Of a stretch of 44,316 nucleotides of DNA, positions 15,325 through 44,316 are shown one piece after another; positions within the stretch are counted from its first letter, which is position 1; each line of letters starts with the position of its first letter. This DNA comes from a virus. The stretch is taken from positions 1 to 44,316 of IMG/VR virus record IMGVR_UViG_3300032245_000985, one strand, 5' to 3'. The translations under genes and the position numbers were made by a program. The notes under the pieces are model-generated. The model ran no database searches, had not been told where the DNA came from, and was given only the letters and a program-made list of their open reading frames with translations.

Positions 15325-15365
15325 ACTGATTATTTACCAAAGATTTTATAAAACGAATGTAATTC

Positions 15366-17987: not shown

Positions 17988-18017
17988 TTGACACTGACAA
18001 TAGTGTTATGTTACAAT
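17988..18017 (+). promoter_or_regulatory. Sigma70-like promoter of the oxygenase/aminotransferase/amidinotransferase operon
   Basis: Perfect TTGACA (17988-17993), an 18-base spacer, TACAAT (18012-18017), then 6 bases to the ATG at 18024. It implies a leaderless transcript for the five-gene operon. It sits back-to-back with the A-type carrier promoter. Confidence 0.65.
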
Positions 18018-18023
18018 GGTTAT

Positions 18024-19165: not shown

Positions 19166-19713
19166 TTTCTTCCAGTCAATGCAGACATCATGACTTGTTT
19201 CAAAGTCTCTATCAGCACTGTCGAGCAGACTGGGAGGAATGGAATCAAACTCATAATATTGAAACAGAATCAATCAATGCAGGTGATGTATATGAAGCCA
19301 AAATGCTGGATGACCGTTGTGGTTGGTGGGGTGTACCTTTGGTTCATTTTTATAAACGTACTAGATGGAGCGAGCAATGGCCACGTACCTACAGTGCTAC
19401 CAAAGATGTGCCAGGTGTTATACATGTGGCAATAAACTTTACCAAACCAGGCTGCACTATTCCTGTGCATCAAGACAAAGTGGATCGTATCAATGATCGT
19501 GTGGTAGATCTTGTACCCACATTGATAGGAATTCGCATTCCAAGCGACGACATAGATATTGTGGGATTTGAAATAGATCAAAAAAGAATTTATATAGGTG
19601 AAGGAGATATTGTGAGTTTCCTACCAGAACAACCACACGGTAGTTGGAACTTTTCATCAGAATGGAGAGTCACTCTGTACATCACAACAGAAAGAACATA
19701 CTGGCAACTATGA
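19162..19713 (+). CDS. Asp/Asn beta-hydroxylase-like 2OG oxygenase, operon gene 3
   Basis: 183 aa. The triad is H103-Q-D105 (CTIPVHQDKVD) and H159 (EQPHGSWNFS) with R169 (EWRVTLYI) for 2OG. The layout PGCTIPVHQDK ... IGIRIPSDD ... GDIVSFLPEQPHGSWN is the aspartyl/asparaginyl beta-hydroxylase pattern. It differs enough from operon gene 1 that the two are distant paralogues or separately acquired, so the operon has three non-redundant oxygenases. The stop forms ATGA with the aminotransferase start. Confidence 0.8.
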   Translation: MISSSQCRHHDLFQSLYQHCRADWEEWNQTHNIETESINAGDVYEAKMLDDRCGWWGVPLVHFYKRTRWSEQWPRTYSATKDVPGVIHVAINFTKPGCTIPVHQDKVDRINDRVVDLVPTLIGIRIPSDDIDIVGFEIDQKRIYIGEGDIVSFLPEQPHGSWNFSSEWRVTLYITTERTYWQL

Positions 19714-20804
19714 AACCTTTTCCAGGATTAATATGTGGTGAACAAAACCCAGTAGGACCATCGCAACCTTATTGGCAGTATGGTAATATTGTTAATGGAG
19801 TCAAACAAATAGATCCAATATTGCATTTTGGTTGTTTCGTATTAGGATTCCAACGCACAGACATTGTGGATTATGTGTGTGAGCATATGAAAACCAAACC
19901 TGAAGTGGCAGAAAGTTTTCTTGCTCATGATGAATTAAGACTCAATGATGTTACTTGGCAGTTGGCAGAACGACTGCACAGTATGACCGGCTATAAAAGT
20001 ATATTTGCTCTCAGCGGCAGTGATGCCAATGAAGGTGCAGTAAAACTAGCCAGTGCTTATCAAAAACAAATAGGACAAACACAACGCCATCGCATTGTGT
20101 CATTTGAGAACAGTTATCATGGTTCTACTTTCCTAAACTATAATATGGGAGACAGTTTATTCCGCAATCCTTTTTATACACTACGACCTTATGAATCAGT
20201 AACAAGATTACCTAGAGACTTTGCAGTGCTGGATCATAATTGGTCAGATGTGATCTGCGTGATGGTGGAAACCTGTCCATACAATAATGGTCTACAACCT
20301 GACTCGGCTGAATTTTGGGCCAAGATCAATCAAATACAACAGCAAGGAGTTATAGTTATTGTGGATGATATATTCATAGGTGGCGGTAAAACTGGCACTG
20401 TGTTTGGTTGGCAAACATTGCCCATTGCTCCAGATATCACCACACAAGGCAAAGCCATCACGGCAGGCTACTTCCCTCTCAGTATCACAATGTACAACAA
20501 AAAAATTGCTGATGCACTGTTGGATCAATTTGATTGGGAACATGGGTTTACATACAGTTTTTCACTGCCTGGTATTTTAAGTTGTTACAAATATTTAGAT
20601 ATACTAGAACAAGAACAGATATTACAACAACATCAAACAGTAGTCACTGCTGCTCGAACAATCTTTGCTCAACAAGATTATCAAGTGATTGGAGAATTTG
20701 GCACAATGTTTTATATTAAAAGAAAACAAGATAAACAGTTCTTTGTTGTGCCTGTTAATGCCACAGATGAATATTTTGCTGTGTTAAAGGAGCAGTTGCA
20801 ATGA
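19710..20804 (+). CDS. Class III PLP aminotransferase, operon gene 4
   Basis: 364 aa from the ATG at 19710, chosen for its ATGA overlap with the oxygenase. Fold type I class III features are all present: SGSDANEGAVKLA (102-114, cofactor phosphate loop), SYHGST (aromatic/His stacking), D219 in VDDIFIGGGKTG (pyridine N contact) and Schiff-base K248 in TTQGKAITAGYFP. Such enzymes move an amino group between an omega-amine or beta/gamma amino acid and a keto acid; glutamate-1-semialdehyde-type mutases share the fold. It is somewhat short for the family (usually 400-450 aa), losing part of the N-terminal region. It would create or consume an amine that the next enzyme could amidinate. Confidence 0.9.
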   Translation: MKPFPGLICGEQNPVGPSQPYWQYGNIVNGVKQIDPILHFGCFVLGFQRTDIVDYVCEHMKTKPEVAESFLAHDELRLNDVTWQLAERLHSMTGYKSIFALSGSDANEGAVKLASAYQKQIGQTQRHRIVSFENSYHGSTFLNYNMGDSLFRNPFYTLRPYESVTRLPRDFAVLDHNWSDVICVMVETCPYNNGLQPDSAEFWAKINQIQQQGVIVIVDDIFIGGGKTGTVFGWQTLPIAPDITTQGKAITAGYFPLSITMYNKKIADALLDQFDWEHGFTYSFSLPGILSCYKYLDILEQEQILQQHQTVVTAARTIFAQQDYQVIGEFGTMFYIKRKQDKQFFVVPVNATDEYFAVLKEQLQ

Positions 20805-21862
20805 CCTATACAGAATATGATCCATTGGAGAGTGTGATAGTGGGAGATACTTATGCTCCGGGTGATGTGGATCATTTGTTGAACAGCAATGCCACACAAT
20901 TCAATAAAATTCTAGAAGAAACCAAACAAGATTTAGACAGTCTAGCAGATTTTCTTAAACAAGGTAATATTAATGTGGTGCGTCCTACATTGTATCGTTA
21001 TGACAGTGTAAAGATGCCCAAGTTTGACATACAGTTGCCCATGGCACCAGTGGTACCAAGAGATGCACTGCTAGTGATAGGCAATACTATTATGCAAACT
21101 TATACCAGTTACACAGATAGATATTTTGATTCGATTAGTTATTATTCTATATTTGAAAAAATGTTTAGAGAAGGTTATCGTTGGATCAGCCAACCAACAC
21201 CTATGTTAACCAATCTTAATACTGAACATGATTGGTTTGTGAGTGATAGAACCTATAAAGATAAATTATCAGATCGAGTTTTATGGCACACTGCCACAAT
21301 GTATCGAGCAGGTGATGCTGTTATTGTGAATAACGAAGGTCCAGGATCAGCCACAGGATTAGAATGGTGTCGCCGAGAGTTACCCGAATTTAAATTCTAT
21401 CACAACACCGGCACACGTTTTAAAGGTTTTGGCCATATTGATCACGGCTTTATAATGATAGACGATGACACAGTAATTCATGCAGGATTAGATTGGGTAC
21501 CAGAATGTTTACGTAAAAAGAAACTAATCGATGTAAGTGATTGTTTACCCAAATTAAAGTTAGATAGATATGTGCAAGATTACGCACAGGCTCGTAACAA
21601 AATGGATGTAGAATGGTTAGACAAGTATCTAGAAAATTGGAGAGGTTACGTTCAAGAGGTATGCTTTGATTTAAATGTACTTGTTATAGACCGAAACAAT
21701 ATTGTATTTGCAAGGCACTTGCCTGATTTATTTGCAAAATTAAAAGCTCTACAGATAGATTGTCATGTGATTCCACAGCGTCACTATTTGTTTTGGGAAG
21801 GTGGTATTCACTGTTCTACTCTTGATATTAAAAGAAAAGGTACTAAAAGAAAAGTTATTTAA
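20801..21862 (+). CDS. GATM-family amidinotransferase, operon gene 5
   Basis: 353 aa, the length of arginine:glycine amidinotransferase. VPRDALLVIGNTIMQT, LEWCRRELPEFKF, GHIDHGF and GGIHCSTLDIKRKGT line up with AGAT blocks. H212 (GHIDHGF) and nucleophile C338 (GGIHCST) correspond to AGAT His303 and Cys407. AGAT Asp254 (in FDAAD) aligns by eye with H163 (LWHTATMYRAG), an altered catalytic position. Family role: transfer of the amidino group from arginine to an amine through a Cys-amidino intermediate. The acceptor here is unknown. It has a good Shine-Dalgarno (AAAGGAG) inside the aminotransferase gene and ends 10 bases from the convergent radical SAM gene. Confidence 0.85.
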   Translation: MTYTEYDPLESVIVGDTYAPGDVDHLLNSNATQFNKILEETKQDLDSLADFLKQGNINVVRPTLYRYDSVKMPKFDIQLPMAPVVPRDALLVIGNTIMQTYTSYTDRYFDSISYYSIFEKMFREGYRWISQPTPMLTNLNTEHDWFVSDRTYKDKLSDRVLWHTATMYRAGDAVIVNNEGPGSATGLEWCRRELPEFKFYHNTGTRFKGFGHIDHGFIMIDDDTVIHAGLDWVPECLRKKKLIDVSDCLPKLKLDRYVQDYAQARNKMDVEWLDKYLENWRGYVQEVCFDLNVLVIDRNNIVFARHLPDLFAKLKALQIDCHVIPQRHYLFWEGGIHCSTLDIKRKGTKRKVI

Positions 21863-21872
21863 TTACCAAACT

Positions 21873-22955
21873 TTATAATATATCCCCGTCGTTCTTTTCG
21901 TTGTAGGTGTATGTTTCTGGTACTCGATTCAACACAGGTAATCCTTTGTTCACATAAGCATCTCGAGTGATCACTTGATGCACAAAGTTAGTGAGATAGC
22001 CTTGTCTATTAAATTTAGCCCACGGAGAGTGTTTCAGTTGATGCATGTCTATATTAGCAGCATCTGGCCACTGTATAATTCTCAATTTGTGTCCGTTCAT
22101 ATGTGCCATCATGTGATACATATTGTCATCTCCTTCATCGTGAGCGCTGATCAATTCATGTCCTAATGATCGAGCTATCTTTTCTATTTCTTTATAATTC
22201 TTGCTGATATATGCTGTGGGTTCATTGGGTACTCGACCTATGTTACTGCCCAATCGTATACGAAACTGATATTTTTTCTTTTTATTGTAAGCAGGAAAAC
22301 TATTAATTTCTTCCAATACATCTCGTAGATGCTCATAGTTCTCCACAGTGTATCCTATATAATGGAAATGTAAATCCATATCAATACAATTTTTTATACC
22401 TTCTAATTGTCTCTCATGAGTATCTCTGCCTTGATAACTCCAATGATTCAATCCTATCAGCACATTCTTTACTCTATATAATAATAAATTTTCCACAAAT
22501 TTCTTCTCACTGAGTCTCACACCATTGGTCAGTATAGATGGTACTCTATTATCCTGATGCACACAGTCTATGATATCAAATAGATCTTTTCTCACAGTGG
22601 GTTCTGCACCAGCAAGAATAATATTTTTTAATTGAGCAGGAGCTGTGCGTATGTCATTGTAAATGTAAGCAAGATCGATATCTCTGTCTTTGTTATTGGG
22701 TATATGATAACAATGAGGACAGTCCAACTGACATCTGTTGGTAGTTTCTATCATCAGTATTTTATTATAGAGCTTATTTGTTCGTTGTTCCAATCTCTCG
22801 CAGAATTCTGCATCAGGATCTTGCACTATTTTAAACAATCCGTGTTCTGGACATTCTTTATTAATATATCTCACACCATCTTCCACTGTGATCTGAGAAG
22901 GTAAATGTTTATAACAGATATGACACAGAGAATGTGATTCGTATAATAGTTTCAT
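21873..22955 (-). CDS. Radical SAM enzyme with N-terminal zinc-type motif (Tes/MJ0619-like)
   Basis: 360 aa. The SAM-binding cluster motif is C75-x3-C79-x2-C82 (NRCQLDCPHCYH), followed by an AGAEPTVRKDLFDII glycine/glutamate strand. Ahead of it lies C11-x2-C14 ... C35-P-x-H38 (SLCHICYKH, NKECPEHG), the rubredoxin-like start seen in the MJ0619/tetraether-synthase-like group, whose members act on pterins and lipids. The C-terminal 100 residues have no Cys-rich SPASM domain. Substrate unknown. Its ATG overlaps the SufE stop (ATGA), so the Fe-S enzyme and a sulfur-transfer protein are co-translated. Confidence 0.85.
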   Translation of the reverse strand: MKLLYESHSLCHICYKHLPSQITVEDGVRYINKECPEHGLFKIVQDPDAEFCERLEQRTNKLYNKILMIETTNRCQLDCPHCYHIPNNKDRDIDLAYIYNDIRTAPAQLKNIILAGAEPTVRKDLFDIIDCVHQDNRVPSILTNGVRLSEKKFVENLLLYRVKNVLIGLNHWSYQGRDTHERQLEGIKNCIDMDLHFHYIGYTVENYEHLRDVLEEINSFPAYNKKKKYQFRIRLGSNIGRVPNEPTAYISKNYKEIEKIARSLGHELISAHDEGDDNMYHMMAHMNGHKLRIIQWPDAANIDMHQLKHSPWAKFNRQGYLTNFVHQVITRDAYVNKGLPVLNRVPETYTYNEKNDGDIL

Positions 22956-23356
22956 CTTCCGTTGGCGTAGTTCTTTATTGTTAATATAAGACTGCCCAAA
23001 CCATTCTGTCTCTGTGGTGTGAGTATAGAAGTCATGCCCAATGGTGCAAAATCTTCTATTTTTATTTTTTGTACGTTCTTGTATTTTTGTCCACTCAATA
23101 TATCTAACACAATATAAGCAGTGCCTCGAGTTATAAAAGCATCTGCACCTGCTCGTAATCGCAATACTTCTTTTTCAAATATCGGTATCAACCATAGATT
23201 ACTAGCACAACCGTGTATTTTAAAACTGTCCAACTGATATTTGTCATCTAATGGTTCTAACTTTCGTCCCAAATCCATAAGATATTCTATTCGGTCCATG
23301 CCTGACAACTGATCCAGTGTTTTGCTCCATTGAGTAATCTTATCTTTTATTCGCAT
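22952..23356 (-). CDS. sufE: SufE-like sulfur acceptor
   Basis: 134 aa from the ATG at 23356, preceded by GGGAG. MDRIEYLMDLGRKLEPLDDK and FKIHGCASNLWLIP match SufE/CsdE, in which the Cys (here in HGCASN) accepts persulfide sulfur from a SufS-type cysteine desulfurase. It would boost host Suf Fe-S assembly, with the phage A-type carrier at 17604 as a later step. It lies directly upstream of the radical SAM gene and overlaps the W-rich gene before it by 17 bases. Confidence 0.9.
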   Translation of the reverse strand: MRIKDKITQWSKTLDQLSGMDRIEYLMDLGRKLEPLDDKYQLDSFKIHGCASNLWLIPIFEKEVLRLRAGADAFITRGTAYIVLDILSGQKYKNVQKIKIEDFAPLGMTSILTPQRQNGLGSLILTIKNYANGR

Positions 23357-23636
23357 GATCTCCCATCCTCTGCCACCAGAACCAAAAACGCAGAGCATCC
23401 TTTTTATATTGAAAACTCATATAAGCTCTGTTCCGACCATATGCTCGTTCATCATAGGTATCATAGTCAAGATTGCTCCAATCTGGATGTGTCCAAAACC
23501 ACCAACCCCATGATCCCACGCTGTGTCTTTTGCACCATTCTATAAATTCTCCATCCACTCCAAAAGAATTAAGATCTATATTGTGACGAAATTTCTGTAG
23601 ATAACCAGATTTCTTGCGTCGTTTTTTCTTAATCAT
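23340..23636 (-). CDS. Trp-rich 98-aa protein, unknown
   Basis: 98 aa, basic N-terminus (KKKRRKKSG), then very rich in Trp and Tyr: HSVGSWGWWFWTHPDWSNL and KKDALRFWFWWQRMGDH. No family recognised; not a membrane protein by pattern, since aromatic residues alternate with charges. It overlaps sufE by 17 bases and has its own promoter with TATAAT 7 bases before the ATG. It may head the W-rich/sufE/radical SAM unit. Confidence 0.7.
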   Translation of the reverse strand: MIKKKRRKKSGYLQKFRHNIDLNSFGVDGEFIEWCKRHSVGSWGWWFWTHPDWSNLDYDTYDERAYGRNRAYMSFQYKKDALRFWFWWQRMGDHANKR

Positions 23637-31843: not shown

Positions 31844-34800
31844 TTATAGTAGACGCTCTGCTATAATGTTGTAGCCAATATCAGCACCGTTGTCACTACG
31901 CATAAATGTCACACGATAGATACGACTCAATGCTTTATCCTGTAAGGTAGCTGTAAAAGTGTCGCCAGCACTATCCATACCGCCAAGAGTGTATAAGCTG
32001 GTCCAGGCATTGTTGGCTACGATTGTTCCAGTACTGCCTGCTTGTGTTACTGCACTGCCAGATCTTGCAGCCACCACTGTCCAAGCAAGATTCCTTGCTG
32101 AAGTATTACCGATAACCTGGGGAAATATGCCAGCAAGCCCAGAATTTGTTATGCGGAAACGCATTTCATCCACAGTAAGTTCAGTGCCCATTGCGGCATT
32201 GAACGCTGTTCTTGCTACGCTAGGTGTTCTTGCTGTTACTGTTGCGTCAAGATTAACATTAAACCCAGTAGGACTCATGGTCAATACATTGGTAAACGCA
32301 CTGCTACTACGGAACTGGAACTGTCCGTTAGTGGTTCCACCATTACTAACATCAAAGTATATTACACTGGCTCCGTTGGTACGATCACGGATAGCCGCAT
32401 CTCTGGGCACAGACAATGCCACATTACTAATAGCACTGTCGCCCGCACTAAATGCTGTTGTGTGATTACTTGTGACAGTGGCAGTTGTGCCTATGGTCTT
32501 GCCACTGGCCATTGACAGGTTATTGTTGATAGTGGTAGTGCCTGTACCTGCTCCAACACTTAAAGTGGTAGCGGCCCCGGCAAAGTTTACAGTTGTTGCC
32601 GTTGTATTAATTAAATCAAAAATTGTGCTTGGTGTTGTCAGGCTATTGGTAATTGCCGGACTGGTCATTGCTGGCGTGGCACCAAAGCTGGTTAGACTAC
32701 TTGCTGTTACACCGCTGGCCAATGTATTACCAGTCAAGGATCCTGCTGCCGCACTTGTTATAGCTCCCCATGGAGTTGTTTTCCAGTTGGCGGTTGCTGG
32801 TGGTTGTATCAATGTATAAGAAATCCCGTTACCAAGTCCACTATAACCACTACTCATAGTGATATTGATAATCTGATTGGAACCTGTGATATTGGTTACA
32901 GGAGCTCCGCCATATGACCATCCTGCAGGTGTAGCGGCAAAGGCTGCAACTATCGCAATCCGAAGTGCGGAAGACCCGGCATCAACAACAACCTGTATTA
33001 AGCCGCCACTGCTTACGATTGGCAAGGAATAGCTTGTACCTGTGAATGCTTGGAAACAATAATAAATGTAAGTGCTGTCAAATGCCACACTGCCTACAAC
33101 ATCACCGGCAGCACCAGTTAGTGCTGATGGCACTGCTGTGATCTTTATTGAGTTGGTGCCGTCTGTTAGTGTAGGTATGTTAATGGCTGCACTGCCATTA
33201 AAGCTAACACCATTGATGTTTCGTGCTGTGGTCAGCGTGGCGGCTGACCCACTCACTGATCCAGTGATAGTGTTTGTAACTGATAGATTTGTTAAGGTAC
33301 CTACGCTTGTAAGACTACTTGCTGTTACTCCTGATGCTAGAGTATTTCCAGTCAGTGTACCTGCTGCTGCTGTGACTGTGATGTCAGCACTTCCATTAAA
33401 ACTAACACCGTTGATGTTGCGAGCAGTGGTCAGTGTAGGTGAACTACCAGTCCAAGCTGTGGTCTGCACAGTAGCGTCTGGGAATGTTAAACTGCCAGTA
33501 CTTGTAGCACCAGTGACTGTGAGACTTTCCACTGTGGTGGGTGTTATCAAAGATGTTACTGGATTCACTAACACAATAACTCCCGGAGTGCGAGGCACAG
33601 TTGGAGTGGTGCCTGGTGCTAGAGTTTCGATTTTAGTGGTGGTGTTGTCGTCACAACTCCAAACAATCTGCACATACTGTCCGGCAGTGACAGTTACAAT
33701 AAATGGAGTTATTGCAATCAAGTAGCCGTTGTTGTTCTGTTTTGAAGGTATGGTAAATCTACTGTTGGAATCTGCTATGTCTGAACCGTTCTTTCTAAAC
33801 CATACATTGACATCACTGGCATCAGTTTCCACATTATGAAACTGGAGGCTGAATTCTATCTCATAAGTTCCAGCGTAGGCAAAGGTAATTCTATTGCCCG
33901 ACACAATGCTAACACCATTGGCTTCAGCAGTCTGCCCAATGGCTACCACATAGGCAGTGGTCTGACTGGTTGCTGTCTGTTCAGCAGATGTATCGTAGAA
34001 ACTGCCATAGTAGGCAATGCCTGTGGGCAGAGTATCCACACCATTCACTGTGGTGGGTATCCACTTGCTGGTAGCAGTGTTGTAGGTCAATACTTGATTG
34101 TTGCTGGCTCCTGCTACGTTGGTATCAGTGAGTTCAGACAAGGCGTCAGGATAGTTGGCTGTGATGACTCCACTGCCGTTTATGGTAATGGTTGTGCCGT
34201 CAACTTTGACACCACCCAGTACTGTTGTTGAAGCTGTGGGTAAAGAATAAGCGGAACCACTGATAGTTAAAGTATCTCCTGACACTGCTGTGGTCACTGT
34301 GCCAGCACCAGCAATCTTAAATGTTTCTCCAATGGTCACATCTGTGCCTGTAGAGTCATCTCCCACTATGGTGATTGCCTTATCGGTTTTTTGAGTATAA
34401 TTGGTTAAATTAGGACCAGTGATGGTTAGGGTATCTCCTGACACTGCTGTGGAGATGTTAGATGCACCTGCAATTTTTAATGTTTCTCCATTGTTAAGTG
34501 TAACTCCTGTGGAGTCATCACCCACCACTGTGATAGTGGAATTGGTCAGATATGATGATAGATTTGGTCCTGTTATGGTGATATTGCCTTCACTGTCTGA
34601 AGCAGTGGTGATGCCACTCGACCCTATAAACTTGACTGTTTCTCCATTGTTAATGGTCCTACTGGTGCTGTCATCTGCAGCCACATTGAATGTGTATGGC
34701 TGTGCGGCTGTGGTTTGTCTTGTGTTGTCAAAAAATGTAATACCGCTTGATGAATTATTTGTAAAAACTATTCCTGTTGAATCTACACTAACACCAGTTA

Positions 34801-36538
34801 CTCTAGTAACACTACCAGTTGGAACAACTAAAAAGTTTATACGTGTTCCAACAGCTGAATTACTGAAATCTTCAGCAGCTTGAAATTGTACAGCGGATAA
34901 TGAAGTTGTATTAGGACCGTAAGCACTACCTGTATAACCAGAAGCATTAAATGAAGTTAATACATCTAAATTTTTAGTTGCTGTTGGACTATTTGATGTT
35001 CCTCGTGCTTGTCTTCCTACATATAAAGGAAATACACCAGTACCAAAAGAATCATTTGTTATAATGCTTGGACGATTATCATTACCTGAAAGGTGAAGCA
35101 TACCACCTGCACTAACAACCGGTTGAACAGTACCATTTGTAGAACCATTAATTAATACAGCGCCACGATCTAAAGAAGGAATATTTGGTACAGTTATTTC
35201 AACTCGACCCTCACGACTAACTGAAAATGTACTAAAACTAGAAGATGTTTGTACATTAATCGCTCTATTAAATGTAATGTTACCTGTAGCACCAAGTGAA
35301 CCAACTATCATATTACGAGTAGCATCACCAATCTTAATCTGATTGTCTATAAGAGTAAATTCTCCTACTTTTAATCCTACACCACCTTGTAAATAAACTA
35401 ATCCATCACGAGCACCTATGGCAGTATCTGTACCTAATGTTTCGTCTTTAATATAAATTGTACCAGCACCTAACCATAATTGTTTAAATCGGTGAGAAGG
35501 CGTACCTAAACTCCATGTATCAGTACTATAGGGAATAATATCAGAGTGGTTTATTATATGACCACCAGCTCCAGCATTTAAAGTAATATCCGTATTTGCT
35601 TGTGTAACAATAGATAAACCAGCATTTGTTATTGCACGAGCAAAAGTTAATACTGTGTCAGATACTGGTAGTGGCAAATCTGGATCAAAATTTAAATCTG
35701 TTATAATAATTTTATTGTAACTACCAGTACCTACATATAGAATTTTACTACCTACAGGAATACCTGCACCTGCTACAACATCATCTACTTGAAGTGCTAT
35801 TGCAGGAGTAGATTTTAATTGTAATACTGCATAAGGCCCTGTACCTAATCCATTACTAAGACCATAATCAGGCGGCGTTAATGATGATCTATCATTGCCG
35901 TGTTCTAAAACCGAATCTAAATTTTCATTTGATATATTTGCTATAATTTGTTCTGCACTAGAAATTACAGAACCTACAGGAATATTTACAGAATTAACTG
36001 AAATATTATTTGTTGTTGTGTTGCCTCTATCAGTAACAGAATCCAGAGTATCTGCTTCAGCTGTGAGATAAGAACCCAAATTGGGTCCTGTGATGGTTAG
36101 GGTATCTCCTGACACTGCTGTGGTTATACCTGATGTACCTGCAATTTTTAATGTTTCTCCATTATTAAGTATAACTCCTGTAGAGTCATCGCCTACCACT
36201 CTTAGAGTGGAATTGGTTAGATATGAACTTAGATTAGGTCCTGTGATTGTAAGTGTATCTCCTGACACTGCTGTGGTTATGCCACCTGTGCCGGTTACTT
36301 TTAGAGTTTCTCCATCGGAAACTCGTGTGCCTGTGCTGTCATCACCTACGAATGTTAATCCCTGTGCTGTGCCACCTCCTTCACCACCACCAATAATAGT
36401 ACCACCTGGTGTGTCGTCTAATTGTATTCTTAGAGTATTGGTATTAGAATCATACCATATACGATATAACTCTCCTATACGAGTGTTGCCATCTGAGTAG
36501 GGTTGATAACTGGAAAATATCTTTTGAGTAAAGGCCAT
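31844..36538 (-). CDS. Giant tail fibre, 1564 aa, with C1q-like domain
   Basis: The ATG at 36538 has the strongest Shine-Dalgarno in the window (AGGAGG). The N-terminus is FTQKIFSSYQPYSDGNTRIG, then repeats of the form GDDSTGTxVxxGETLKxxG followed by TAVSGDTLTITGPNLSSYLT. Residues about 120-640 are a separate low-GC part. Near 850-1000, PTGIAYYGSFYDTSAEQTAT, NRITFAYAGTYEIEFSLQFH and YVQIVWSCDD read as a C1q/TNF-like jelly roll, often receptor-binding. Repeats of SLTSVGTLTNLSV and ATLTTARNINGVSFNGSA follow. Almost no Cys. It likely recognises host. Confidence 0.85.
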   Translation of the reverse strand: MAFTQKIFSSYQPYSDGNTRIGELYRIWYDSNTNTLRIQLDDTPGGTIIGGGEGGGTAQGLTFVGDDSTGTRVSDGETLKVTGTGGITTAVSGDTLTITGPNLSSYLTNSTLRVVGDDSTGVILNNGETLKIAGTSGITTAVSGDTLTITGPNLGSYLTAEADTLDSVTDRGNTTTNNISVNSVNIPVGSVISSAEQIIANISNENLDSVLEHGNDRSSLTPPDYGLSNGLGTGPYAVLQLKSTPAIALQVDDVVAGAGIPVGSKILYVGTGSYNKIIITDLNFDPDLPLPVSDTVLTFARAITNAGLSIVTQANTDITLNAGAGGHIINHSDIIPYSTDTWSLGTPSHRFKQLWLGAGTIYIKDETLGTDTAIGARDGLVYLQGGVGLKVGEFTLIDNQIKIGDATRNMIVGSLGATGNITFNRAINVQTSSSFSTFSVSREGRVEITVPNIPSLDRGAVLINGSTNGTVQPVVSAGGMLHLSGNDNRPSIITNDSFGTGVFPLYVGRQARGTSNSPTATKNLDVLTSFNASGYTGSAYGPNTTSLSAVQFQAAEDFSNSAVGTRINFLVVPTGSVTRVTGVSVDSTGIVFTNNSSSGITFFDNTRQTTAAQPYTFNVAADDSTSRTINNGETVKFIGSSGITTASDSEGNITITGPNLSSYLTNSTITVVGDDSTGVTLNNGETLKIAGASNISTAVSGDTLTITGPNLTNYTQKTDKAITIVGDDSTGTDVTIGETFKIAGAGTVTTAVSGDTLTISGSAYSLPTASTTVLGGVKVDGTTITINGSGVITANYPDALSELTDTNVAGASNNQVLTYNTATSKWIPTTVNGVDTLPTGIAYYGSFYDTSAEQTATSQTTAYVVAIGQTAEANGVSIVSGNRITFAYAGTYEIEFSLQFHNVETDASDVNVWFRKNGSDIADSNSRFTIPSKQNNNGYLIAITPFIVTVTAGQYVQIVWSCDDNTTTKIETLAPGTTPTVPRTPGVIVLVNPVTSLITPTTVESLTVTGATSTGSLTFPDATVQTTAWTGSSPTLTTARNINGVSFNGSADITVTAAAGTLTGNTLASGVTASSLTSVGTLTNLSVTNTITGSVSGSAATLTTARNINGVSFNGSAAINIPTLTDGTNSIKITAVPSALTGAAGDVVGSVAFDSTYIYYCFQAFTGTSYSLPIVSSGGLIQVVVDAGSSALRIAIVAAFAATPAGWSYGGAPVTNITGSNQIINITMSSGYSGLGNGISYTLIQPPATANWKTTPWGAITSAAAGSLTGNTLASGVTASSLTSFGATPAMTSPAITNSLTTPSTIFDLINTTATTVNFAGAATTLSVGAGTGTTTINNNLSMASGKTIGTTATVTSNHTTAFSAGDSAISNVALSVPRDAAIRDRTNGASVIYFDVSNGGTTNGQFQFRSSSAFTNVLTMSPTGFNVNLDATVTARTPSVARTAFNAAMGTELTVDEMRFRITNSGLAGIFPQVIGNTSARNLAWTVVAARSGSAVTQAGSTGTIVANNAWTSLYTLGGMDSAGDTFTATLQDKALSRIYRVTFMRSDNGADIGYNIIAERLL
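34419..34452. repeat. Direct repeat copy 1 (34 bp) in giant fibre gene
   Basis: A 34-base perfect direct repeat shared with 36090-36123, lying inside the TAVSGDTLTITGP coding module. Shorter 22-base versions lie at 34272-34293 and 36255-36276. It flanks a region of different composition. Confidence 0.85.
34740..36040 (-). other. Low-GC inserted module within the giant fibre gene
   Basis: Hand counts of 60-base lines here give about 28-42% GC, against about 48-55% in sampled lines just outside. The encoded residues (for example FKQLWLGAGTIYIKDETLGT and TLNAGAGGHIINHSDIIPYS) lack the surrounding GDDSTG repeats and resemble other marine phage fibres. Boundaries are approximate. It lies between the two 34-base repeats, so it probably entered by recombination between fibre modules. 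Confidence 0.5.
36090..36123. repeat. Direct repeat copy 2 (34 bp) in giant fibre gene
   Basis: Second copy of the 34-base repeat found at 34419-34452; the two are 1.67 kb apart in the same orientation and could recombine. Confidence 0.85.
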
Positions 36539-37403: not shown

Positions 37404-39440
37404 TCATTTTGTGGAAGCGTGAAATATTCCGTCCCAATCCTTTGGAAGCGTTTGAGTTGCTTGAAACTCGCAACGTTCAATCCACATATTATAGTAAAGT
37501 GTCATCTTGCCATCAAACTCACTTTTAAGTTCTTCACACAATTTAATAGCATCGCCGAACTTCTGAGAACGGTATAATTCATGCATTTTGTTGTGTTTTT
37601 CTTTAGCTTTTGCATAATCTTTATTAACATTGTCCAACACTGTATAGATACCAATGCCCACGCTCTTGCCTTTGACAGCTAAATCATCTATCTTTAGGAA
37701 AAAGAAATCATCTCCGCATAGTTTCACAGTGTTTTCTCCCACCAACAACAAACAACCATATTCTTTACATTTGCTTTCAATACGAGCAGTGGTGGATACA
37801 GCATCACCCAACACATCATAAGAGTGGCGCTGTGTGCTGCCCATCTCACCGATGTAGCCCAATCCTGTGTTGATACCAGCACCCATGCCCACAGCAGGTC
37901 TGCCTTTGGCTGTTAATTGTTTATTAAATTGTTCCACTGCTTTCAACATATTAAGAGCAGTTCGCACTGCTGTCTTTGGATGTTCTGGATCATCGATGGG
38001 TGCGTTGTGAATGTGCATGCTGGCATCACCAATATACTTGATGATCATACCATTGGCTTCTAAAACGGGTTGTGTGATGGCATCCATATAACTATTCATT
38101 ACTTCAGTCAACCCTTTCACATCATTACCGAATGATTCTCCCAGTGGAGTGAATCCTCTTAAATCTGAAAAACAGATGGATACTTCTTTTTTAATACCCT
38201 GTTTGATTATGTCTGGATTCTTCTGCAACATTTCCACAACCATGGGAGATGCATATCCTCCAAACTGTTTCTTGATTCTCTGTTTCTGTAGATATTCGCT
38301 GACAAATTTAATACCATAAGCATGCAACATTATCAGTATCAATCCTGCCACTAGTAGAGTGCCATCCAACAACCAAAGGTGATGTGTGTAAAAATAACTG
38401 CTGATTGGAACCACAGCGACGATAGCAACGGCTCCTGCTGCCATGCCCACATAAACCCATCTGCTCAAAAATAGCAAACCTAAAGATAACACTATTAAAC
38501 TTAAAACCTCTGCACCTTCAGCCCAATCAGGTCTCTTGATATTCACTCGGTTGATCATGGTGCCTATCACGGCTGCCTGTAGATCCTGAGGCCAAACTGG
38601 TCCTATGGCTGTGGCCACTGGATTGCCTATGCCTGCTGCTGATGTACCCACTATCACTATTGCGCCTTTAAAATCTTGGGGTAGATTGCTCAGTGACGCT
38701 GATTGATTACGTTGACTCCAATCAATCCATACTCTGCCCAATGAATCTGTGTCAATGATGCCTATGTCTCCAGGCAGTCGTATCTTCTCCACACCGTTGG
38801 CATTTAACTTCACTTGAAACGTAGAATTATTTGTGGCCACTCTTAGAGTTTCCATAGCAAGGTTAGGATATAATTTTCCATCCACTGTGACAATCAGAGG
38901 CAGTCGTCGGTTCACCCCATCTATCTCTGGCAGTGTATTAGTAGTTCCTACTCCCACAGCAGCGTTTTCCAATGACGGTATATTAGCAATCATGCCTGGA
39001 TATCTCACAATGGTGTTAAGATGTTCTGGTCCCAGCACTGCTGATCCTGGCACTCGGGGTTCATTCTTGGTCTGCTGTGCTGGCACGTTGCTCAACACCA
39101 CAGGATAATTTTTCATAGTCTCGGCTAATATCGAATCTTTGCCACTGCGATCTGCTTCTGGCATCAGCACGTTGAACACTACCAGACCTGCTTTGCGTTC
39201 GTATAAATCTTTGATTATGCCTGCATACACATCTCTAGGAAATGGCCATTGTCCATACTGCTCCAAACTCTTCTCGTCAATATTAACGGTGTATATGCTG
39301 TTTTGTGTGGCGGTTTTGCCGGTAATCAGTGTATCAAAATATCGCAGTCGCACACTCTCTACGAACTTGGGATCTGCGACCCTAATCGTGAGGATTAATA
39401 TTAAAGTAACGATTGCTGTCCAAGGACTGACCCATTTCAT
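37404..39440 (-). CDS. CHASE2-domain membrane adenylate/guanylate cyclase
   Basis: 678 aa. An N-terminal membrane segment (about 6-24) is followed by a periplasmic CHASE2 sensor (about 30-300: TVNIDEKSLEQYGQWPFPRD, then an RPDWAEGAEVLSLIVLSLGL exit). Three or so helices follow (about 310-395), then a class III cyclase domain (about 415-600). FSDLRGF and YIGDASMHIHNAP give the two metal Asp. Lys in MIIKYIGDA and Asp in SYDVLGDAVSTTARIES match mammalian Lys938/Asp1018, which favours ATP. The transition-state Asn1025 position is Ser and the Arg is kept. A phage-encoded cAMP-type sensor is very unusual. A late-like box lies 8 bases before the ATG. Confidence 0.9.
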   Translation of the reverse strand: MKWVSPWTAIVTLILILTIRVADPKFVESVRLRYFDTLITGKTATQNSIYTVNIDEKSLEQYGQWPFPRDVYAGIIKDLYERKAGLVVFNVLMPEADRSGKDSILAETMKNYPVVLSNVPAQQTKNEPRVPGSAVLGPEHLNTIVRYPGMIANIPSLENAAVGVGTTNTLPEIDGVNRRLPLIVTVDGKLYPNLAMETLRVATNNSTFQVKLNANGVEKIRLPGDIGIIDTDSLGRVWIDWSQRNQSASLSNLPQDFKGAIVIVGTSAAGIGNPVATAIGPVWPQDLQAAVIGTMINRVNIKRPDWAEGAEVLSLIVLSLGLLFLSRWVYVGMAAGAVAIVAVVPISSYFYTHHLWLLDGTLLVAGLILIMLHAYGIKFVSEYLQKQRIKKQFGGYASPMVVEMLQKNPDIIKQGIKKEVSICFSDLRGFTPLGESFGNDVKGLTEVMNSYMDAITQPVLEANGMIIKYIGDASMHIHNAPIDDPEHPKTAVRTALNMLKAVEQFNKQLTAKGRPAVGMGAGINTGLGYIGEMGSTQRHSYDVLGDAVSTTARIESKCKEYGCLLLVGENTVKLCGDDFFFLKIDDLAVKGKSVGIGIYTVLDNVNKDYAKAKEKHNKMHELYRSQKFGDAIKLCEELKSEFDGKMTLYYNMWIERCEFQATQTLPKDWDGIFHASTK

Positions 39441-39487: not shown

Positions 39488-40126
39488 TTATTTGATCAAT
39501 TCTGAGTGTGCCACAGTTCTTAGATAAGGCTTAATTTTACGGAAAGATTTTGGAAATCTTTGCTGTGCCTGCTCATCTGACAATGCTGCAGTAACAATTA
39601 AATTTTCTCCCTGTTTCCAGTTAGCCGGTGTAGCCAATTGATGTTTAGCAGTGATCTGTAATGAATCTACTACTCTCAATATCTCATCAAAATTTCTACC
39701 TGCTGATGCTGGATAGTCTAATCTCAATTTAACTTTCTTATCTGGCCCTATCACAAACACAGTTCGCACAGTCATAGTGTCTGGAGCACTATCTCTCACC
39801 ATGCCATACAACTGACTTACACGTCTGTCATTATCTGCTATCAGAGGATATTTAGGCAATTGACCTTGAGTTTCGTGTATATCGTTCAACCATTGGTCGT
39901 GATTATCTAAGTTGTCCACACTTAATCCAATCACTCGCACTTCACGTTTTTTAAATTCAGGCAATAGTTTTTGTAAAGTACCTAATTCAGTGGTGCACAC
40001 TGGAGTAAAATTCTTTGGATGTGAAAACAGTATGGTCCATTGATCATTAATGAATTCATAAAAATTAATTGTTCCATGACTGGTGTTAGCAGTGAAGTCT
40101 GGTGCTATATCATTTATTTGTATCAT
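39488..40126 (-). CDS. 1-Cys peroxiredoxin (Prx6/AhpC-TSA family)
   Basis: 212 aa. The peroxidatic Cys sits in FTPVCTTEL after SHPKNFTP, with conserved Arg in the DSAPDTMTVRTVFVIGPDKK region. The C-terminal extension (WKQGENLIVTAALSDEQAQQ) and lack of a second resolving Cys mark the Prx6-type 1-Cys group. It reduces peroxides using cellular thiols. It has a strong Shine-Dalgarno AAAGGAG and a TTGACT/TAAATT promoter about 25 bases upstream. Alongside SOD at 23655 it gives the phage two oxidative-stress enzymes. Confidence 0.92.
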   Translation of the reverse strand: MIQINDIAPDFTANTSHGTINFYEFINDQWTILFSHPKNFTPVCTTELGTLQKLLPEFKKREVRVIGLSVDNLDNHDQWLNDIHETQGQLPKYPLIADNDRRVSQLYGMVRDSAPDTMTVRTVFVIGPDKKVKLRLDYPASAGRNFDEILRVVDSLQITAKHQLATPANWKQGENLIVTAALSDEQAQQRFPKSFRKIKPYLRTVAHSELIK

Positions 40127-40280: not shown

Positions 40281-41696
40281 TTAATTGCCTTGACGCACTG
40301 TGGTTGTGCCGCAACCGCCCAATGTCACGCAGTTGGTTGTTATATTATAAGTCTGACCACCGGTCTGTGCGAGATCCACACCTGCTGGTCCACCCAGGTT
40401 GTTGATCACTATAGTGGCCTTGTTCTGAGTTGTGCCAGATTGTGCCACTGTGGCACTATTACCATTGCCATTCAGTGTGATATCCAGATAGTGATTGGCA
40501 CCTGTGCCTGACTGTGTGGTACTCACAGTGTTGTTGTTGCCCGTGACGGAATTGAATAACAGTTTGTTATCTCCCGACTGTGTGCTGGTGATAGAATTGT
40601 AATTGCCACTTACAGAGTGTTCCATATAATTGCCCACTGTGCCCACATCACGATTCTGTTGAGTGGTCACTGTGTTATAACTGCCCTGCACATCCACTTT
40701 CTGATAGTTGTTGCCCAATTGATTGCCGCTCAGTGTGCCGTCTGACAGATAGCCTTGATTGAGATTGAGAGTGTTGTTGCCCGTGCCAGACACATTTAAA
40801 TCTATTAAATTTTTACCTGTGCCACTGTTCTGTCTGATAGTGGTAGAGTTGCTGTTGCCTGATATGGTGGCAGTTTGCTGTGTGGTGCCTGTGATTTTAT
40901 TATTATTACCTTTTTGAGTAATTGTGGTGGTGTTGTTGTTACCCACTTGATCTATATAGATCTCATTGCCGTTGTTGATGGTATCAGTCCTGCTTCTATT
41001 GGCAGTGATATTGATCTGTTGTCCACTGGTAACGTTGCTGGTGTAAACACTGCCACCATATCCACCTGCTTGACCACTGGCAGTACCTCCTGTGGCACTG
41101 TAGTAACCACCATTGACTAGAGCGCCATTATTGATCACACAGGTTGCCGATCCAGAATACAAGGCACAATTTTGCCAGCCTGCAGTGCTGGTCCAACCCT
41201 GAGCAAAACCATTGGTTCCATGTATACCAAACTCTGGATTATATAAAATGTTAGGACCACCATTGAACGTCAGTGACGGGTTGATAATATGCGGTCCATA
41301 GTTGCCGGCCCAGTAGCCGCCATCTTTGCCATAGAACTCTACCTTAACATACGCAACCGTGGCACATGATCCGCCACAGTTGGTAGTTGTTGTTGTATAT
41401 GTTGTGGGGGTTGAGGCTCCGTAGACCAAGGTATTGGATAGCTGTGCTGTGTTTACAATAGCATTACTGCTGTTGTAAAACACCATCCTTATAACGAATG
41501 GATCACCAGGTGCTCTTCCACCACCATCCATGGCCTGAGTAGACAGTGTGAATGTCCCACCAGCCCGCATGTCATTGTTGAATACCACTGTCTGACTTAC
41601 TGTTGTAAAATTATAGGCCATTTTGATGGCATTGTTGATGGCCATTGCTGTATTACTAAAAAATAATAATAATAAAATTATAAAAATTTTTCTCAT
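40281..41696 (-). CDS. Secreted curlin-repeat (CsgA-like) protein, 471 aa
   Basis: An N-terminal Sec signal peptide (MRKIFIILLLLFFSNTAMA) is followed by a non-repeat region (20-240) rich in Gly, Asn and Tyr with paired Cys (TTTNCGGSCATVAYVKVEFY). The C-terminal half consists of curlin-type repeats on the Q-x-G-x-x-N pattern: DQVGNNNTTTITQKGNNNKI, TISGNSNSTTIRQNSG, SITSTQSGDNK, STTQSGTG, TVAQSGTTQNKATI. Curlin repeats form stacked beta amyloid. Its ATG overlaps the FecR-gene stop. Roles could be a host-surface aggregate or a virion decoration; neither is shown. Confidence 0.82.
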   Translation of the reverse strand: MRKIFIILLLLFFSNTAMAINNAIKMAYNFTTVSQTVVFNNDMRAGGTFTLSTQAMDGGGRAPGDPFVIRMVFYNSSNAIVNTAQLSNTLVYGASTPTTYTTTTTNCGGSCATVAYVKVEFYGKDGGYWAGNYGPHIINPSLTFNGGPNILYNPEFGIHGTNGFAQGWTSTAGWQNCALYSGSATCVINNGALVNGGYYSATGGTASGQAGGYGGSVYTSNVTSGQQINITANRSRTDTINNGNEIYIDQVGNNNTTTITQKGNNNKITGTTQQTATISGNSNSTTIRQNSGTGKNLIDLNVSGTGNNTLNLNQGYLSDGTLSGNQLGNNYQKVDVQGSYNTVTTQQNRDVGTVGNYMEHSVSGNYNSITSTQSGDNKLLFNSVTGNNNTVSTTQSGTGANHYLDITLNGNGNSATVAQSGTTQNKATIVINNLGGPAGVDLAQTGGQTYNITTNCVTLGGCGTTTVRQGN

Positions 41697-42811
41697 TTTT
41701 GTATCACTGTTATGGTTGTGCTGCCACCTGAGTTAACTCTATTCTGAATACTCACTGGTCCTTGACCTTGTATAATTGTGCTGTTCTGACTTCTTGGAGT
41801 TTTGATACACTGATTGTTACTGCCATCATTTTTACACAATGTTACATCAGTGGCACCCACACTGGCTTTTACTCCTGTGTTGGGATCATAATCAGGCAAT
41901 AAACTGTCTTTGTCTTGTGCAAGAGCACTTTTTAATATTGTTTTTCTTTCATTTTTTATTTGTTGTTCTAATATATCAAAAATGTTGGCTAAGAAATTTT
42001 GTCCCAATAAATCTTCCAAAAGAGGATTATCACCAAACTCATTTCTGCTTTTTAATTCATCTTTTAAAAAATCCTTGCTATCTAATAGATTTTCATTCAG
42101 CATGCTGGCTGAATTTTTTTCTGATTTCTCATCTTCCTGTTGTTTGGCGATTTCTTTTGGAGGACTCACAATCAATAGGTTATTAATAGTATCTAAATTT
42201 AAACTCAGTATTGCAGGTTTTAATGGAGCTGTGTTTCTGTTCTCTACTCGAGTGCCTTGAAATGGTTGATTTAAAGTAACTGTGCCTGCGTTATTCATTA
42301 CATCAATTATGCCTGTTTTACAATCTCGTTCTATATCTGCCCAACCTTTGGGACAACTAGGCAATAAAATAATGGTACTGGCTCCCACTTCATCCACAGT
42401 GGCAGTAAAGTCTGTGCCTCTCACTGCAATGGTGGCAGATGGTGTGTTGATATTAACTGAGTTGGGATCTTTGTGTGCAATAGCACCTGAAGCATATCTC
42501 ACAGTGCCTTCAGCAAACTTCATGGCCAGTTTACCTGTGCCTTTTTTAGGATCATACACGAAATCATCTATTACAAGTTTGGAATTTTCATTCACTTCCA
42601 CTTTGGTAGCATCTTCAAATGTTATGCCCACTTTGCCTTTGGCAGTATTCACAGCATCCTGCATCTCTATGCCTGTGCCTTTGGTGCCTGATATGGTATT
42701 CTTATTTCTCACAATAGACCCTGGTGCTGCTGTTTGTTCTGTGATGGTTCCTATGGCTGCTGAGTATACAGAAGTGGTGTACAACAGCATTAATAATACG
42801 ATCTTTTTCAT
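41693..42811 (-). CDS. FecR-domain protein with signal peptide and curlin-like tail
   Basis: 372 aa. Signal peptide 1-18 (MKKIVLLMLLYTTSVYSA). The FecR domain lies at about 35-150: GKVGITFEDATKVEVNENSK, LAMKFAEGTVRYASG, VNINTPSATIAVRGTDFTAT, the standard ending TPxATxAVRGTxF. A charged coiled-coil-like middle (210-300, many Glu/Lys) precedes a C-terminus QNSTIIQGQGPVSIQ ... TTITVIQK, which reads as curlin repeats. It has no membrane anchor and no sigma-factor-type region, so it is not a classic TonB-linked FecR regulator. Location suggests it is a partner of the curlin proteins. Confidence 0.82.
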   Translation of the reverse strand: MKKIVLLMLLYTTSVYSAAIGTITEQTAAPGSIVRNKNTISGTKGTGIEMQDAVNTAKGKVGITFEDATKVEVNENSKLVIDDFVYDPKKGTGKLAMKFAEGTVRYASGAIAHKDPNSVNINTPSATIAVRGTDFTATVDEVGASTIILLPSCPKGWADIERDCKTGIIDVMNNAGTVTLNQPFQGTRVENRNTAPLKPAILSLNLDTINNLLIVSPPKEIAKQQEDEKSEKNSASMLNENLLDSKDFLKDELKSRNEFGDNPLLEDLLGQNFLANIFDILEQQIKNERKTILKSALAQDKDSLLPDYDPNTGVKASVGATDVTLCKNDGSNNQCIKTPRSQNSTIIQGQGPVSIQNRVNSGGSTTITVIQK

Positions 42812-43626
42812 TATCTTGAATTCACGTTGATGTTAAAGTTGTTGCTGCTGCCTGTGGTTTTAATATCCACAGTGCTGTCCACTGCAATGCCTGACTGTGC
42901 TATGGTGTGCGTGTTGAGGTTACCGCTGACAGAAAGATTGGTCCAATGCCCTAGAGCTCCTCCACCTGATTGTGTTATAGTGGCAGTGTTCTGATTGCCT
43001 GTTATATCCAATATGACCAAACCTTTAGTGCCACTTTGAGTGATAGAAATATTATTGAGATATCCTGTCACACTAGCAAAAGATAAATTATCCACTCCTG
43101 ATGTGACGCTGTTGTATGTGTTCACATCTCCAGCTGTCAGCAACAGCACTGTGTTTCTCATGCCTGTGATTGATATGTTGGTTTCGTTAAAATCTCCTGT
43201 TTCAACCACATACAAAGATATGCCCGATGTTTCTGTCTTGCCATCTGAATTCACATCTACGTAGCCTAGGTTGCCATATCCTGTAGAATAGTACACAAAA
43301 GTATTGGGGGTAGATAATTTGCAGTCAGAGCAAGTGAGACCCGCTCGGTCTTCACTGTCTTCAAAATTAGTAACTATGGAAAATTTTAGATAGTTGCCAG
43401 ACCCTATCTGTCTGATGTCTACGTTTTGACCATCACCATACATCATGGCAGGATTAGCGTACCATATAGGTCCATCCACTCCACCTAGACGATTGGCTGA
43501 ACCATCCTGTTCCACATAGATGGTAGCATAATCTCCCAGTTGATCGATGTAGGCTTCGTTATCAGCTGCCCAGCAGGCTGCCGAGGAAAGTATCAGTCCT
43601 GCTGTTAACCAATGTAGAAGCCTCAT
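42811..43626 (-). CDS. Secreted curlin-repeat protein, 271 aa
   Basis: Signal peptide 1-21 (LTAGLILSSAACWA ending before ADNEAY). Repeats resemble CsgB/CsgA: IDQLGDYATIYVEQDGSANR, IRQIGSGNYLK, NISITQSGTKGLVILDI, TATITQSGGGALGHWTN, HTIAQSGIAVDSTVDI. Two Cys (about 98 and 101, LTCSDCKL) form a possible disulfide in the non-repeat part. Its stop overlaps the FecR-gene ATG by one base (TAATG). AAGGA precedes its own start. Confidence 0.8.
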   Translation of the reverse strand: MRLLHWLTAGLILSSAACWAADNEAYIDQLGDYATIYVEQDGSANRLGGVDGPIWYANPAMMYGDGQNVDIRQIGSGNYLKFSIVTNFEDSEDRAGLTCSDCKLSTPNTFVYYSTGYGNLGYVDVNSDGKTETSGISLYVVETGDFNETNISITGMRNTVLLLTAGDVNTYNSVTSGVDNLSFASVTGYLNNISITQSGTKGLVILDITGNQNTATITQSGGGALGHWTNLSVSGNLNTHTIAQSGIAVDSTVDIKTTGSSNNFNINVNSR

Positions 43627-43635
43627 CCATCATCC

Positions 43636-44316
43636 TTAATGATTCTGCTGTATGTTGACTAGGTTGTTGCTGCCAGTCACACTCATAGTGGTAGTATTAG
43701 TGTTGCCTGACGTGGCATTCTGTCCCACGTTCAAAGTATTGCTGCCACCAGTCACAGTCAAACTAGATGAGCTGTGTCCCAGTCCTTGTTGTGCAATGCT
43801 GATACCGTTGGACGATCCTATTATGCCCACAGTGGCCGAGTTGCCTGTGGCATCTCCACCCACCTGTCCAATTCTCACATCGTTGCTGCCACCCTGTATG
43901 GTCACTGAAGCAGAAGCCTTGTCACTGGTTGAACCCGAACCAAATGTGGTAGAATCTAAACCTAACAAGCTGCCTGAAGTAGAGGGCACTGTGATATCAT
44001 TGGTCAAAGAAGATCCTTTGCCCTGTAACACAGTCACAGTGTTGCTGTTGCCACCTGTGATGCTCACAGTTTGACTGTTCAGAGTACCATTGGCACTTTG
44101 ATTCACAGTGTTGCTGTTGCTGTTGGCACCCGATGTTCCAATATTTGTGGTCACAGAGTTAGCACCACTGTTGCCTCTAACGTTCACATTGGTAGTGTTG
44201 GTGTCACCATATATGGTTTGATTGATGGTGTTACCTGCACCTGTGCTCACAGTGTCCACGATAGACGTGTTGTTGTCACCGGTCGCTGAGTAGTTCGTTG
44301 TGCTGGTTCCTGTGGA
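43636..44316 (-). CDS. Curlin-repeat protein, C-terminal part (runs off right edge)
   Basis: The frame is open from the right edge to a stop at 43636, so the N-terminus (and any signal peptide) is outside; the GTG codon at 44257-44259 is not its start. The visible part is almost pure degenerate repeat: GNTINQTIYGDTNTTNVNVR, SNSNTVNQSANGTLNSQTV, NVGQNATSGN, LVNIQQNH. Asn, Thr, Ser, Gly and Gln dominate. It is nine bases from the 271-aa gene, so a minimum of four genes form the cluster. Confidence 0.78.
   Translation of the reverse strand, partial: STGTSTTNYSATGDNNTSIVDTVSTGAGNTINQTIYGDTNTTNVNVRGNSGANSVTTNIGTSGANSNSNTVNQSANGTLNSQTVSITGGNSNTVTVLQGKGSSLTNDITVPSTSGSLLGLDSTTFGSGSTSDKASASVTIQGGSNDVRIGQVGGDATGNSATVGIIGSSNGISIAQQGLGHSSSSLTVTGGSNTLNVGQNATSGNTNTTTMSVTGSNNLVNIQQNH

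Follow-up and report, generated by a model that had tools for sequence, protein, structure and literature searches.

Results

The window analysed here is a virus-derived linear contig, IMG/VR record IMGVR_UViG_3300032245_000985, taken over its full length of 44,316 nucleotides (nt). Its right end, positions 40281-44316, is filled by four contiguous open reading frames (ORFs) on the minus strand, and adjacent ORFs either overlap (by 1-4 nt) or are separated by 9 nt. A sequence-only reading of this DNA had described three curlin-repeat proteins and a FecR protein in a phage; Pfam matches show that this cluster is real, with one of the curlins cut by the contig end, and the phage is T4-like. The ORFs are best read as a single operon, namely the 3' portion of a type VIII secretion (curli) operon carried by the phage. 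They are listed below with the next two genes; a head is a domain that precedes the curlin part at the N-terminus.

43636..44316, minus strand: upstream curlin 1; 226 amino acids (aa), 5' end lost at the contig end; a headless, putative fibre subunit.
42811..43626, minus strand: upstream curlin 2; 271 aa with a Sec signal, its repeats starting at the mature N-terminus; its top NCBIfam match, CsgB, is below the cut-off.
41693..42811, minus strand: FecR-domain protein; 372 aa, secreted, with a Sec signal, a predicted FecR fold, a low-confidence linker and a beta-strand tail ending N-R-[IV]-N...Q.
40281..41696, minus strand: head-bearing curlin; 471 aa, with a Sec signal (1-20), a predicted jelly-roll head (about 22-145), a flexible linker, a short helix (224-239) and a predicted curlin beta-solenoid (about 245-471).
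39488..40126, minus strand: peroxiredoxin; 212 aa, without a signal; it occupies the slot between curlin and cyclase, whose cargo varies.
37404..39440, minus strand: CHASE2 plus adenylate/guanylate cyclase; 678 aa, the conserved end of the module.

Both complete curlins scored above the curated Pfam cut-off of 20.7 bits for Curlin_rpt (PF07012), with 28.3 bits for 42811-43626 and 22.6 bits for 40281-41696. The truncated gene 43636-44316 scored 15.1 bits alone and 22.4 bits counting neighbouring repeats. Its intact counterpart in a related locus, L007:8229-9188, lies directly after csgG, overlapping its end, and encodes 319 aa with a Sec signal and a Curlin_rpt match of 26.4 bits. The FecR domain (PF04773) of 41693-42811 scored 44.1 bits, above the cut-off of 24.

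Of 331 candidate viral stretches, 322 encoded a relative of the FecR protein, and 80 of these were kept for analysis as a first set of loci (L006-L085). A second set (L086-L165) was found via the cyclase. Several contigs are shared by both sets, so that counts refer to loci and not to independent phages. Among isolates, six records carried a FecR relative, representing two kinds of phage: Pelagibacter phage HTVC008M and Methylophilales phage Melnitz.

Two signal peptides had been visible to the sequence-only reading; the signals stand, but their number rises to three, as by inspection every complete protein of the cluster has a Sec-type N-terminus. The automatic signal test was positive for 41693-42811 and 40281-41696 and negative for 42811-43626, whose aligned relatives share its signal, ending A-A/D-N. 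Sec signals were found in 48/49 upstream curlins, 59/60 downstream curlins and 78/80 FecR relatives, compared with 151/556 other ORFs of at least 180 aa; thus, the export signals are beyond chance. The idea of a secreted curli-type module in a phage is supported.

The same module recurs in the relatives. In the first set, csgF and csgG were present upstream in all 77 loci with at least 3.5 kb of upstream sequence, as had been suggested for the flanks of the cluster; the window itself stops short of them. In L007 the two proteins scored 58.1 bits (CsgF) and 154.5 bits (CsgG) in Pfam. A curlin directly followed FecR in all 50 loci with at least 7 kb downstream, and 46 of these 50 had a same-strand cyclase further on. 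In HTVC008M and Melnitz the order is csgF, csgG, curlin, FecR, one more gene and the cyclase; this additional gene encodes a curlin in both. The T4 late promoter motif TATAAATA preceded csgF in 3 of 62 upstream stretches, compared with 2.2% of random stretches, and so provides no evidence on expression timing.

The second set was less uniform. FecR was present in 52 of its 80 loci, and a curlin lay within 70 bp of FecR in 23 of the 39 with room. Inspection of 13 of the 16 loci that seemingly had no curlin after FecR found an overlapping curlin in seven, an autotransporter directly after FecR in one (L100) and no clear curlin in five. Thus, the apparent lack is partly a start-codon effect, and the five loci are exceptions to the order. 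Related operons also occur in bacterial contigs. Three loci, which look chromosomal by their neighbours, have the order csgF-csgG-curlin(s)-FecR-CHASE2 cyclase (L170 and L172, Caulobacteraceae; L174, Hyphomonas). Four contigs of metagenome-assembled genomes (MAGs; L168, L169, L171 and L173) are close matches with a longer gap after FecR, and these may be phage sequence binned with bacteria.

The curlins on the two sides of FecR differ in architecture. The 50 non-redundant upstream curlins, of which one is partial, are uniform and headless, 228-365 aa long, with repeats almost from the mature N-terminus. Downstream curlins (60 non-redundant, complete) are bimodal in length: 27 measure 186-260 aa and 33 measure 341-852 aa. 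All of the long ones except that of Melnitz, whose repeats begin at residue 23, consist of a Sec signal, one or more N-terminal heads of 183-606 residues and a curlin part of 178-235 residues. The head set comprised 33 proteins including that of the window, non-redundant at 95%; head length was counted from residue 19, boundaries were set by motif matching and then corrected by hand, and L167, a long curlin without a head, was left out. A cysteine pair ends the curlin part in 33/33.

Some heads belong to known families. At E <=0.01, the 34 long proteins gave Pfam matches to Curlin_rpt (20), PA14 (4), GLEYA (2) and F5_F8_type_C (1). The PA14 heads all exceeded the cut-off of 24 bits (HTVC008M, 27.7; L019, 46.7; L041, 40.3; L043, 52.2), and the HTVC008M downstream curlin, accession AGE60352, is above the cut-off for PA14 and Curlin_rpt alike. 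A DDG motif in a PA14-like context was found in 10/33 heads, with 1.5 expected by shuffling. In a solved adhesin PA14 domain, two adjacent aspartates touch the bound sugar at the calcium site (PMC6650083). By this analogy, the DDG-bearing heads may be calcium-dependent lectins. One BFVD entry, a 'PA14 domain-containing protein' from an uncultured phage, matches head and curlin jointly; thus, head-curlin fusions are already in databases.

Heads were exchanged independently of the curlin part. Between the window and L007 the curlin parts are 86.8% identical and the FecR proteins 89% identical (tblastn), whereas the heads have no detectable similarity, and window positions 41058-41636 form a clean DNA block that is unmatched in L007 with both flanks matched. 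The reverse is seen with L025, L052 and L054, where the heads are 75-79% identical but the curlin parts only 55-58%; FecR is 55% identical in L025 and L052. When all pairs were compared, 10 of the 47 with curlin identity of at least 60% had heads that are not detectably related. Since head and curlin identities disagree between pairs, the two parts travel separately. This pattern fits display or adhesion.

The heads were also sought in the other ORFs of the window and loci. Of 12 further matches, 11 were curlins or curlin fragments and one was an autotransporter (L022), the only non-curlin carrier, which rules out heads shared with tail fibres within this sample. Among isolate phages, the window head had one weak match, to a hypothetical protein.

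The AlphaFold2 model of 40281-41696 (27 sequences; predicted local distance difference test, pLDDT, 73) places a signal helix before a beta sandwich (31-145), a disordered linker, the helix at 224-239 and a beta solenoid from residue 245. Per block of ten residues, the sandwich has a pLDDT of 74-93, falling to 58-67 at 121-140. Its top Foldseek matches are sugar-binding F-box (Fbs) domains (E 3.4e-4; template modelling score by target up to about 0.5). VIA-align gave Z 9.1 for the F-box domain (2.4 A, 122 residues), about 8.5 for viral capsid domains and about 7.5 for carbohydrate-binding modules. The window head is thus predicted to be a jelly roll that resembles sugar-binding domains.

FecR as an anti-sigma factor and iron regulator has a cytoplasmic N-terminal domain and a FecI-type sigma partner. 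The phage proteins are FecR relatives by Pfam (32/32 at E <=0.1), but 78 of 80 have an N-terminal Sec signal, and no FecI-type sigma factor (Sigma70_r4_2) was found in the window or in 25 other records, most of which are fragments. A role as iron regulator is therefore unlikely. The FecR protein has no internal segment above a hydropathy of 1.74. Residues 17-90 of the window protein's model match PDB entry 5ix9, a 'cell surface anchoring domain', with Z 11.2 (2.1 A, 72/76 residues; Foldseek E 1.4e-3), the next row having Z 3.4. We take 5ix9 to be one of the outer-membrane retention domains of giant RTX adhesins, linked to LapA-type retention. By sequence, the protein has no match to 5ix9 at E <=10, and its best match to any PDB entry has E 0.55. 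The tail (305-372) is predicted as strands (pLDDT 73-86) and looks curlin-like by eye (NRVNxGGxTxITLxQ), with Q371 invariant in 35/35. Among cellular FecR loci, 19/80 have a matching cyclase within 300 bp; thus, the pairing of FecR with a cyclase is wider than curli.

At the DNA level, the CHASE2 sensor half of 37404-39440 is about 93% identical to L008:4379-6421 and about 75% identical to L007:12507-14327, and the catalytic half belongs to a different type of cyclase in each of the three, as if the output domain had been swapped. The slot between curlin and cyclase is occupied in the window by the peroxiredoxin and in L008 (3368-4333) by a two-domain rhodanese whose N-terminus is export-like; in L007 it is empty. 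In many loci an ORF of 99-133 aa, often just before csgF, matches only the C-terminal part of the cyclase profile (about 560-678); judged by this match, it is a free-standing copy of the cyclase tail domain. A second kind of secreted protein, of about 400-910 aa, has an N-terminal head, a Thr-rich linker and a C-terminal autotransporter-type barrel. Examples of the two are as follows.

L036:7196-7597, L048:6739-7125, L076:7200-7553 and L087:5532-5900: cyclase-tail ORFs upstream of csgF.
L022:11727-13658, L020:7733-9718, L025:8057-10093, L019:12506-15244 and L100:7642-9651, among others: autotransporter-type proteins.

The autotransporter-type protein was matched by 22 ORFs, 21 of them ending in Phe, and that of L019 matches Pfam Autotransporter. 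As the L022 autotransporter head is related to the L009 curlin head (E 5e-48), one head family uses two display platforms. Curlin heads and autotransporters are not strict alternatives: among first-set loci that extend at least 5 kb downstream past FecR, 5/32 of the long type and 3/27 of the short type have an autotransporter.

The window is phage DNA up to its right end. It encodes PHROG families for a clamp loader, PhoH, a tail-fibre connector, an exonuclease and a peptide deformylase. A 50.6-kb contig (IMGVR_UViG_3300031857_018492; L008/L088) is colinear with window positions 21879-43546 at 84-95% DNA identity; among the stretches replaced or missing are a 1564-aa gene, the peroxiredoxin and the catalytic domain of the cyclase. 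This colinearity across the boundary, together with the cluster in two cultured phages, rules out a join to a bacterial chromosome, which the sequence-only reading had named as a finding that would overturn it. A plasmid origin was likewise rejected, as only 3 of 72,556 plasmid records matched at the DNA level, with at most 2% covered.

Elsewhere in the window, the 1564-aa ORF (31844-36538), which is absent from the same place in L008, has no Pfam, PHROGs or NCBIfam match; a stretch of 90-180 residues resembles tail-fibre and other proteins of several phages. By eye, 17604-17939 is HesB/IscA-like and 22952-23398 is SufE-like, which would make two iron-sulphur assembly genes. Also by eye, 17988-19713 and 19644-21862 hold three hydroxylase-like genes followed by aminotransferase-like and amidinotransferase-like ones, on the plus strand, opposite to most genes.

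Discussion

Based on the gene content and order, the export signals, the head architecture and the head exchange, and with the help of the predicted folds, we infer a model for fibre formation, secretion route, ligand and benefit and for the roles of FecR and the cyclase. We think it probable, though only just, that the module serves the curli-based display of binding heads on infected cells, with fibres tethering or blocking competitors. The operon would comprise csgF and csgG (just beyond the contig), two headless curlins, the secreted FecR protein, the head-bearing curlin and the CHASE2 cyclase. The infected cell would export the curlin subunits through the phage's own CsgG-CsgF pore. Surface fibres would then assemble, their body built from headless subunits, with the head-bearing subunit presenting a carbohydrate-binding-like domain. 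Rather than regulating iron, the FecR protein may be an envelope-located anchor or a factor in assembly, and the CHASE2 cyclase may report the state of the envelope to the cytoplasm. Most likely, the fibres would attach the infected cell to particles or to other cells, or shut out competitors. Because heads are swapped while the fibre part stays constant, the specificity for the displayed ligand is most likely under diversifying selection.

Several points weigh against this model. No CsgE was found in 30 records, with a positive E. coli control; alphaproteobacterial curli systems are likewise reported without it (PMC9599517). CsgG could not let a folded head through, so the head would have to be unfolded while crossing. 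In favour of the model, engineered fusions show that CsgG tolerates added binding domains, as CsgA joined to such domains passes the pore and forms fibres (PMC9477280). No clumping of Melnitz-infected cells was seen (PMC9004378), but Melnitz has the headless form. Heads are not essential, since 27/60 downstream curlins have none. The window head has a very common fold, with Z values close to those reported for unrelated pairs, so that carbohydrate binding is a lead and not a result. Lastly, the FecR model is weak overall (pLDDT 61), and a profile comparison of its tail with curlins gave a probability of 0.7%, so we claim no curlin homology for it. We therefore suggest rather than conclude that FecR is an anchor.

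A bolder version is possible, but we hold it only tentatively: a natural 'curli display' in which lectin-like heads are shuffled like tail-fibre tips, FecR plugs or anchors at CsgG and some heads sit on a phage autotransporter, so that the arms race takes place on the infected cell and not on the virion.

The best of the other explanations, although unlikely, is a coat against superinfection, as proposed previously (PMC9599517). Fibres, headed or not, would mask or occupy receptors against competing phages, and head swaps would track receptor glycans. The same anatomy and head exchange would be expected; however, no link was found between the heads and the phage's own tail proteins, and among the other ORFs of the window and loci only one autotransporter carries them. 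Less probable by about half is the published proposal for Melnitz (PMC9004378) that CsgG-CsgF, put to new use as a gated pore or pinholin, sets the time of lysis, in which case the curlins would be plugs or by-products. The absent CsgE gate would suit such a pore. This proposal presumed that csgA/csgB-like genes are missing, yet curlins with Sec signals are present in 50/50 loci with room, and diversification of heads is not expected of a lysis timer.

We consider it very unlikely that the curlins are virion components, either tail-fibre shafts (the second finding named as overturning the sequence-only reading) or decorations of the particle. The jelly-roll heads do resemble domains of phage tail proteins in BFVD. 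However, the Sec signals and the operon shared with an outer-membrane pore speak for export, no ORF of the window or loci outside the curlins carries a copy of the heads except one autotransporter, and tail-connector proteins are encoded elsewhere in the window (13915-16430), away from the curli cluster. Marginally less likely still is the suggestion that the pore takes up large nutrients or iron complexes and that FecR is a regulator responding to iron (PMC9599517). The FecR export signal speaks against it, no FecI-type partner was found in any of 26 records, and it leaves the conserved curlins and swapped heads unexplained. That the right end is bacterial chromosome joined by an assembly artefact has a negligible probability: genes for FecR, CHASE2 cyclase and peroxiredoxin usually belong to cells and related operons are present in alphaproteobacterial MAG contigs, but the separate colinear contig, the 322 viral stretches and the two cultured phages all stand against it.

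The cluster, its order and its spread have been published (Zaragoza-Solas et al., 2020, PMC7029224; Wittmers et al., 2022, PMC9599517). The reading of the subunits with FecR as a novel, fuller module is not supported, since HTVC008M and Melnitz have the same set and a description appeared in 2022 (PMC9599517). In the pelagiphage literature the second curlin is taken as CsgA/B and FecR as an iron-dependent regulator (PMC9599517; PMC7029224), and tethering was proposed earlier as 'sibling capture' (PMC7029224). Heads on phage curlins were not found described in the portions of the literature consulted, although the supplements of three phage-curli papers might show them. As far as these portions tell, the new elements are the head architecture, head exchange, the FecR export signal with its predicted anchor-like fold and, relative to cellular operons, a head-bearing curlin inserted between FecR and cyclase.

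Curli genes in marine phages are a puzzle, as they are reported in phages whose hosts lack curli (PMC9004378; PMC9599517; PMC7029224). The head architecture makes this puzzle testable. Our results also question two printed readings, namely the absence of fibre genes from Melnitz-type phages and the role of FecR as an iron regulator. If the display model is true, lytic phages that infect very abundant aquatic bacteria reprogramme how sticky these cells are, affecting aggregation and encounter rates.

Among known systems, the closest is the pelagiphage type VIII cluster, which, like the window, has csgF, csgG, curlin, FecR, a second curlin and adenylate cyclase in order and, as described in the sections consulted, no CsgE. 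The window departs from that description: two curlins precede FecR and a head-bearing one follows it, a peroxiredoxin lies between the latter and the cyclase, and the cyclase carries a CHASE2 sensor. The alphaproteobacterial operons of L170, L172 and L174 have the same five components in the same order as the phage module, but in 3/3 FecR leads directly into the cyclase with no intervening curlin. The E. coli curli operon (csgBAC, csgDEFG) and the phage module both have the CsgG pore, CsgF and curlin-repeat subunits; no CsgE was found with the phage module in 30 records, and the module adds FecR, the CHASE2 cyclase and N-terminal heads on subunits. The RTX-adhesin domain of 5ix9 and phage FecR residues 17-90 are predicted to be alike in fold and do not match in sequence. 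Finally, engineered CsgA-nanobody curli (PMC9477280) place a binding domain on a curlin subunit as the phage does; those fusions are man-made, whereas the phage version is natural and carries its head N-terminal to the curlin part.

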